Assembly (NCBI RefSeq): GCF_024464595.1
Contig: NZ_JANHAW010000002.1
Location: forward strand, 1,240,001-1,304,000
Direction of reading: 5' to 3'
DNA: 64,000 nucleotides
Origin: Halobellus litoreus
GTDB taxonomy: Archaea > Halobacteriota > Halobacteria > Halobacteriales > Haloferacaceae
Positions 37,876 through 39,819 of the stretch are shown here, piece after piece; the first letter of the stretch is position 1, and each line of letters opens with the position of its first letter. A model generated the notes under the pieces. The model saw nothing but the letters and a program-made list of their open reading frames with translations. It was not told where the DNA came from and ran no database searches. A program made the translations under genes and the position numbers.

Positions 37876-38664
37876 GTGAACGACGGCGAGATCTCGGAGG
37901 CCGCGTCCGAGCTCGTCTCCGAGAGCCGCCGCGTGTTCAGTTATCAGCAGAGCGCACTCGGCGAGACGCGGACAGTCATCGACCACCAGATCGACATCGC
38001 GGAGGACGCCGACAACGAGTCGCTCCGCATCATGCGTCTCAACTTCATCGTCATCGGCGCGTTCGTTCCGATCTTCGTCTCGACGCCGGAGTTGCTGGCC
38101 CCGGCGCTGCCGTGGGCCGTCATCGCGCTGTTGTTCTCGACGATGTCCGTGTTCGCCTCCGCGTACATCTACCGCGGACTGACGCTGTACGGCGGCTTCG
38201 GGGACTCACCGGACCTGACGGTCGACGCGCTGATCGAGGAGTTCGGCACCACCGAAGACGGCGGCCCCGACGTCTCGCAGGCGGCGTTCCAGAACCGATT
38301 GCTCGAGGACCACCAGGCCGGAATCCTGCACAACAACGTCGAGATCAAGCACCGGAGCGAGATCCACCAGCAAACGACGCTGCTCCTGTTGTTCGCCATC
38401 GTGCTCCTGGTCCTCGGCATCCTGCAGAGCATCACGAGTCTCCCGGCGGCGTACCGGTACCTCATCTACCTCGGCTCCGTCCCGCCGGTCGTCTTCGGGG
38501 TGCACCGCTCCGTCCGGGCGGCCAGTTTCATCTGCCGGCTCGAACGGCGGGGGGAGGACGAGGAACGGCTCGACTTCGACTACTCGTTCGCCCGCGAGTA
38601 CCCGTACATCTCGATGATGTGCTCCTGTCTGTTGTCCGTCTACGATCCGATGGACGAGGAGTGA
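37876..38664 (+). CDS. Unrecognised four-helix integral membrane protein
   Basis: The 262-residue protein (GTG start) has a soluble helical N-terminus of about 50 residues. Membrane helices follow at roughly 55-75, 80-100, 165-187 and 195-215, and a polar loop of some 60 residues separates the two pairs (GFGDSPDLTVDALIEE to IKHRSEIHQQ). The C-terminus contains a few cysteines (MMCSCLLSVYD). I recognise no family. A 67-codon GTG-initiated frame directly upstream (37676-37879) overlaps its start but is Arg/Pro-rich and doubtful. It converges with the borosin-type methyltransferase gene, ending 2 bp from it. Confidence 0.7.
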   Translation: MNDGEISEAASELVSESRRVFSYQQSALGETRTVIDHQIDIAEDADNESLRIMRLNFIVIGAFVPIFVSTPELLAPALPWAVIALLFSTMSVFASAYIYRGLTLYGGFGDSPDLTVDALIEEFGTTEDGGPDVSQAAFQNRLLEDHQAGILHNNVEIKHRSEIHQQTTLLLLFAIVLLVLGILQSITSLPAAYRYLIYLGSVPPVVFGVHRSVRAASFICRLERRGEDEERLDFDYSFAREYPYISMMCSCLLSVYDPMDEE

Positions 38665-38666
38665 CC

Positions 38667-39452
38667 TTACTCGTCGCGATCGGTCGTGATCTCGTCGAGC
38701 CGGTCCCGCGAGTGGAGTGATTCGAGATACCCTTCGTTCACGGGCCCGTCCGAACGGGCGGGGGGAACGTAGAGGGTGTGGCTCGGATGGACCGCGTCGG
38801 CCATCGATTCGAACGCCGACAGCTCGAAGGACTCGATCGCTCCCGACTCGAAGGGGAGCGTCGCCGCACGGACCAGCGACACCTCGTGGTCCGACGGATA
38901 GAACCGCTCCAGATAGCGCCGCAGCCGGGTGAACCGCTCGGGGGCGTTCGGCCGCGCGGTGTAGAGGCGGGAGCCGACGGTGCCGACCTGGAAGAGGAAC
39001 GCCGGAACCGACGGGTTCAGCGACAGTTCCCGGAGCAACAGATCGTTCACCTCGAACATCTGCAGTCCGGTCTCGAACGGGTTCAGCCCCAGATCGACGT
39101 ACATCGCGTCCAGCGACGAGATCCCGGGACGCACGTCGACGTCGACGCCGGCTCCCTCCGCTCGCTGGACGATGTCGTTCGTCGGCGTCACGCCGACGGT
39201 CGGATGTCCGTACGTGGCCAGCGCGACCGGCGAGTCGGCGTCGACCGCGGCGTCGACCACCCGGTCGACGATGCGGTCGTAGGCCGCCGACCGCGGCTGA
39301 CCCTCCTCGTACTCCGAACCCAGCCGTACCACGGTTCCGAACCGGTCCGAGAGCGCTTCGGCCACGATGTCGTGTGGGTGAAGCAGGTAGATCCGGTCCG
39401 AGCGGTCGAGCGCGACGGTGACCTCGTCGGTTAGTTGATTGCAACCGACCAT
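38667..39452 (-). CDS. Borosin-type peptide backbone alpha-N-methyltransferase (tetrapyrrole methylase superfamily), start uncertain
   Basis: From the first ATG the protein has 261 residues. LATYGHPTVGVTPTNDIV, RPGISSLDAMYVDLGLNP, PAFLFQVGTVGSRLY and a late TLYVPPARS align in order with fungal OphMA (YGHPGV, MLPGVSAED, FQVG, YIPP). The residues I remember as catalytic in OphMA correspond to Y48, R54, Y58 and Y81 here, with nearly identical spacing. The superfamily's first strand and glycine loop (RLYVVGLG) are encoded in frame just upstream of this ATG, where no ATG, GTG or TTG exists, so the true N-terminus is probably near 39485. It should methylate backbone amides of the peptide at 39552. 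Confidence 0.85.
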   Translation of the reverse strand: MVGCNQLTDEVTVALDRSDRIYLLHPHDIVAEALSDRFGTVVRLGSEYEEGQPRSAAYDRIVDRVVDAAVDADSPVALATYGHPTVGVTPTNDIVQRAEGAGVDVDVRPGISSLDAMYVDLGLNPFETGLQMFEVNDLLLRELSLNPSVPAFLFQVGTVGSRLYTARPNAPERFTRLRRYLERFYPSDHEVSLVRAATLPFESGAIESFELSAFESMADAVHPSHTLYVPPARSDGPVNEGYLESLHSRDRLDEITTDRDE

Positions 39453-39551
39453 TCCGAGTCCGACGACGTAGAGGCGAGTGGTGATAGTGACCCTCCGGGG
39501 TAAAAACGGGACGTCGCGTAGAAAGCCGCTGCGGTCGACCGCCGACCGCCG

Positions 39552-39731
39552 TCAGTTGTTAATGAGCCACGATCGCGGGTCGAAGTCCCCGTCCGGTTCC
39601 TCCGGGAGCCCGTCGACGTCGGAGAGTCCGTACTCCCGCAGGACGGCGTCGGGGTCGGCTCGGAACCGTTCGCGCACTTCCGCGTCCGAAACGATCGCTT
39701 TTCTGAGCGAGTGGATGTCGTCACCGGGCAT
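39552..39731 (-). CDS. Candidate split-borosin precursor peptide
   Basis: The 59-residue peptide starts at ATG 39731. A TATA element (39756-39762) lies 28 bp upstream, implying a leaderless mRNA. Residues 9-39 form a LigA/Nif11-like helical module (LRKAIVSDAEVRERFRADP, then DAVLREYGLSDVDG), the kind of binding domain found in borosin precursors. The tail after an acidic linker is DFDPRSWLINN, a short hydrophobic C-terminus suitable as core. The methyltransferase frame follows in the same frame after the TGA. Precursor identity is inferred from the gene pair and leader type. Confidence 0.72.
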   Translation of the reverse strand: MPGDDIHSLRKAIVSDAEVRERFRADPDAVLREYGLSDVDGLPEEPDGDFDPRSWLINN

Positions 39732-39755
39732 ACGAGACGCACGACGTATGATGAT

Positions 39756-39762
39756 CATAAAA
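39756..39762 (-). promoter_or_regulatory. TATA box of the borosin-like precursor gene
   Basis: The minus strand reads TTTTATGA around 39755-39762, 28 bp from ATG 39731. A second TATA-like run, GTTTTTAC at 39500-39507, lies upstream of the methyltransferase. Confidence 0.5.
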
Positions 39763-39819
39763 GTGTTTGGCCCAGACGGGTGCGAGATATTCGCCCGACA
39801 GCACGAGTGAAGACGACCT

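Follow-up and report, generated by a model that had tools for sequence, protein, structure and literature searches.

The window, a stretch of 64,000 nucleotides from the haloarchaeon Halobellus litoreus, carries on its minus strand a gene for a short precursor peptide followed by a gene for a borosin-type methyltransferase that lacks a canonical start codon (Table 1). Comparative sequence evidence makes it highly probable that the two genes form a split borosin pair, in which the precursor is started at AUG, probably on a leaderless mRNA, and the methyltransferase is initiated independently at an AUC codon (position 39485). An earlier note on this DNA had listed four explanations for the missing start without ranking them: a rare start codon (ATC 39485 or GTC 39491), read-through of the precursor TGA, a truncated enzyme or a sequence error. 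On the comparison of two genomes the ATC start is strongly favoured, and GTC, error, truncation and read-through are disfavoured. Read on the minus strand, the coordinates first given for the TGA, ATC, GTC and ATG codons hold exactly. The 33 codons from 39551 to 39453 are indeed open in the methyltransferase frame and free of ATG, GTG and TTG, and the first ATG (39452) does lie 3' of the first strand and glycine loop, a loop that homologues retain upstream of this position.

Table 1. Features of the precursor and methyltransferase locus (positions in the window)
Feature	Position	Strand	Remarks
Promoter-like element of precursor gene	39753..39772	-	GGCCAAACACTTTTATGATC; TTTTAT starts 31 nt 5' of ATG
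Precursor gene	39731..39552	-	ATG 39731-39729 to TGA 39554-39552; 59 aa (MPGDD...RSWLINN)
LigA/borosin-binding-domain-like leader and short C-terminal core	within precursor, 39552..39731	-	
Linker from precursor TGA to ATC	39486..39551	-	66 nt here, 69 nt in orthologue; codon-unconstrained
Shine-Dalgarno element GGAGG	39492..39496	-	6 nt 5' of ATC; kept in orthologue
GTC, alternative candidate start	39491-39489	-	AAC in orthologue
ATC, proposed methyltransferase start codon	39483..39485	-	same spacing in orthologue; homologues have their Met starts in the same N-terminal region
Borosin-type alpha-N-methyltransferase	38667..39485	-	272 aa from ATC; stop TAA 38669-38667
First in-frame ATG, internal Met12	39450..39452	-	mechanical ORF call begins here, giving a truncated 261-aa product

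A split borosin-type pair in Halobellus

Read from ATC, the methyltransferase frame matches the Pfam family TP_methylase (4.5e-17); its matches among structures in the PDB are SonM (about 1e-23), dbOphMA and OphMA. In an AlphaFold2 model built from a seven-sequence alignment (mean pLDDT 77) the first strand comprises residues 5-9 counted from ATC, and a Foldseek search with this model placed SonM (7ltc) at rank 1 (E 3.5e-22). Residues Y59, R65, Y69 and Y92 align with Y58, R67, Y71 and Y93 of SonM, whose roles we take from the published work on that enzyme (PMC8429565), and do not vary among 10 haloarchaeal homologues; every homologue examined has strand 1 and the SAM loop. On the precursor side, eight haloarchaeal precursors were combined into a profile, which matches the leader of SonA (E about 4e-6); the window precursor alone reaches only E 0.0004 against Pfam LigA, below the Pfam cut-off. 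The earlier identification as a borosin system, with a SonM/OphMA-like enzyme and a SonA-like leader, thus stands, and by sequence the precursor and enzyme are an archaeal split borosin-type pair of the SonA/SonM kind, for which methylation is predicted. The enzyme would act as a SAM-dependent backbone N-methyltransferase on a separate precursor, whose core would be the methylated part.

The closest known system, SonA/SonM of Shewanella oneidensis (PDB 7LTC; PMC8429565), is a type IV split borosin. It likewise combines a separate LigA-like leader with an alpha-N-methyltransferase of the TP-methylase fold, and the Halobellus pair agrees with it in the fold, in four active-site residues and in the leader profile. 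In contrast to SonA/SonM, the Halobellus pair is archaeal, shares 28% identity with it in structural alignment and is a predicted methylation system; its precursor of 59 residues has a short RSWLINN end, and its enzyme is without a canonical start codon. The fungal fused borosins OphMA and dbOphMA have the methyltransferase fold and catalytic residues in common with the Halobellus enzyme, but their core is fused behind the enzyme, whereas the Halobellus precursor is a separate upstream gene. With this locus, the range of split borosin-type pairs takes in haloarchaea. A literature search found no account of haloarchaeal borosins; because the main genome-mining papers lay outside this search, we make no claim of priority for archaeal borosins.

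An exhaustive search of the family, covering 170 genomes, yielded one close orthologue of the enzyme (86% amino acid identity) in another Halobellus species. The precursor is 90% identical there, and omega values from this two-species comparison place both genes under purifying selection (0.16 for the precursor; 0.17 for the methyltransferase, with dS 0.50, NG86). The element CCAAACACTTTT is kept at an equal distance from the precursor ATG in the orthologue, its TATA-like part lying 31 nt 5' of the ATG, a position that points to a probably leaderless precursor mRNA. The last 33 coding nucleotides of the precursor (39555-39587, DFDPRSWLINN) are identical in the two species, synonymous sites included.

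Proposed initiation of the methyltransferase at AUC

The orthologous locus is arranged alike, with the precursor TGA, an open linker, GGAGG, 6 nt and ATC in the same order, and the 32 nt from ATC onward are identical in both species; the identity at synonymous sites after ATC is only mildly unusual (p about 0.03). The 16S rRNA of the same genome ends in ...GGATCACCTCCT, and its anti-Shine-Dalgarno (anti-SD) sequence CCUCC is complementary to GGAGG. By chance, GGAGG is expected 5-9 nt before a given triplet in 0.9% of cases, and ATC is the only ATN near-cognate codon in frame that the two species have in common. ATG, GTG and TTG are absent from all three frames of 39551-39453 and from the orthologous interval, which removes an out-of-frame canonical start there from consideration; neither linker contains CTG in any frame. 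Of random 22-codon stretches with the same composition, 26% had neither a stop nor a start, and an open, start-free frame is not in itself improbable. The part that chance does not explain is the retention of the upstream strand and glycine loop, the purifying selection on the enzyme and the occurrence of GGAGG, 6 nt and ATC in both species. In Haloferax, coupling of termination and reinitiation is gone beyond about 20 nt (PMC10666635); the 66-nt gap is too far for reinitiation, and independent, SD-guided initiation at AUC is therefore the best reading.

In mechanistic terms, GGAGG would place the ribosome, Met-tRNAi would start the enzyme at AUC 6 nt downstream, and the product would be a 272-aa protein beginning (M)TTRLYVVGLG. 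Initiation at AUC is presumably weak, so that little enzyme would be made per precursor, which suggests a role in dosage. That the AUC start is kept by selection as a translational governor, keeping the amount of RiPP enzyme small against that of its leaderless, AUG-started substrate, we regard as possible rather than probable; if true, the locus would lend comparative support to AUC initiation as a programmed event in archaea. A parallel is Escherichia coli infC, where, according to titles cited in PMC9845219, an AUU start limits synthesis of IF3 and where initiation likewise occurs outside AUG, GUG and UUG and restricts expression; infC is bacterial, uses AUU and is autoregulated by IF3, whereas the Halobellus codon is a predicted AUC in an archaeon.

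Two points from the literature count against the AUC reading, namely that SD motifs in Haloferax 5'-UTRs are rare and reported to be non-functional (PMC8576121) and that aIF1 discriminates against non-canonical starts (PMC8211752). Comparative power is also limited, because the ATC form is present in no more than two genomes. A 2021 review confines the non-canonical translation events demonstrated in archaea up to then to elongation and termination (PMC8211752). An AUC conserved downstream of a strong SD element in a haloarchaeon, a group otherwise thought to depend little on SD motifs, offers a compact system for testing how start codons are selected and how SD elements are used within operons. 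RNA folding around the start gave a window structure no better than shuffled sequences and an orthologue structure with z -2.6; since the window fold is at shuffle level and the two folds differ, we claim no conserved structure at the start. The linker also has a TTTTTA tract, a conceivable promoter for a leaderless enzyme mRNA; we did not adopt it, because its distance from ATC is about 20-25 nt and not the same in the two species. A scan for intrinsic terminators found none.

Alternative readings of the locus

Among the alternatives, read-through of the UGA fares best, although we judge it improbable. It would give a precursor-linker-methyltransferase fusion that modifies its core in cis or serves as the enzyme, and it draws on the shared frame, on a linker that is free of stops in both species despite several indels (66 versus 69 nt) and on the C that follows UGA in both. 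Read as codons, the linker nevertheless has an omega of 1.14 (NG86), where the genes on either side give 0.17 and 0.16, with 23/66 nucleotides identical in a right-anchored alignment and a sequence that is near random save for the SD element; the chance of a kept frame is 1 in 3, and that of an open 22-codon frame about 0.6. By these rates the enzyme is maintained by selection and the linker is not maintained as protein, and the neutral evolution of the linker together with the kept GGAGG-ATC element argues against a fusion. Elsewhere in the family, precursor and methyltransferase share one frame in L013 and L014, but the frames differ in L008, L010 and L012, and stops intervene in L011; because the family has same and different frames alike, the shared frame in the window needs no explanation. 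Archaeal read-through, where reported, serves selenocysteine and pyrrolysine (PMC8211752).

That the truncated 261-aa enzyme is the real product is less probable still. ATG 39452 is the first canonical start, and a mechanical ORF call begins there in both species, but the protein would be missing its first strand and the greater part of the GxG loop, both of which every homologue examined retains. The 33 nt 5' of this ATG are kept (11/11 at the protein level, 32/33 at the DNA level), unlike the linker, and GGAGG is missing before it. The earlier note had proposed aligning the N-termini of homologues; in those examined the upstream strand is conserved. ORF calling based on ATG removes the strand of the SAM loop, and a clone made from such a call would therefore probably yield a dead protein.

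Two further readings have very little probability. A dying gene that lost its start by mutation would account for the canonical start being missing here and present in other homologues, but the frames of 272-278 codons are intact in the two species with an omega of 0.17 after a dS of about 0.5, the active-site residues are intact and the SD element is retained. Just as faint is the prospect of another near-cognate codon, or of an out-of-frame start followed by slippage. A precedent is HVO_1510, whose haloarchaeal orthologues likewise have a conserved N-terminal region without a canonical start and are suspected of atypical initiation (PMC8305020); that case concerns a different enzyme with CTG or slippage as the candidate, and the passages on it make no mention of a conserved SD-ATC element. 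At the Halobellus locus a GTG within the precursor gene opens a frame+1 ORF that extends past ATC in both species, but these GTG codons stand at different places in the two species, the linker lacks ATG, GTG, TTG and CTG in all frames, and GTC 39491, proposed earlier as a start, is AAC in the orthologue. The recurrence of the ATC and of the missing start in the second, independent genome makes a sequencing error unlikely.

Homologues and gene neighbourhood

In contrast to the ATC form, a usable ATG, GTG or TTG stands 5' of the same strand in all relatives whose starts were surveyed: the haloarchaeal homologues L008-L014, the relatives of bacterial or archaeal origin L036-L041 and L042, a copy on a Haloarcula plasmid. 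More distant matches also lie on plasmids. The ATC form, seen in two species, is probably the derived state. An alignment-based scan of contigs returned six relatives, and a protein-only scan of the same genome contigs returned none; viral contigs yielded none either.

The two Halobellus loci are syntenic, with 84-87% nucleotide identity, as far as the precursor gene. Synteny stops at about 39733, beyond which the genes are unrelated; by eye, they are a surface-domain protein and TetR here and a UvrD/PcrA-like helicase there. On the other side, a convergent membrane protein with weak DUF4231 similarity (37876-38664, plus strand) adjoins the enzyme in both genomes.

The C-terminal ends of other haloarchaeal precursors read VLVVVVNN or VVIIVVV, in contrast to RSWLINN in the window precursor. 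Two LigA/BBD-like precursors stand in tandem 5' of the methyltransferase in L008 (G049), one of them with a V/I-rich end (VLVAVVVTIARA). On plasmid unnamed4 of Haloarcula sp. CBA1115 (L042:2728-5879), a short hypothetical gene that is likely a precursor, a borosin-type methyltransferase and a serine peptidase of the prolyl oligopeptidase family follow one another, and the gene for an ABC transporter ATP-binding protein lies close by on the opposite strand. This gene order resembles the precursor-enzyme-peptidase logic of omphalotin clusters, in which the peptidase is OphP.
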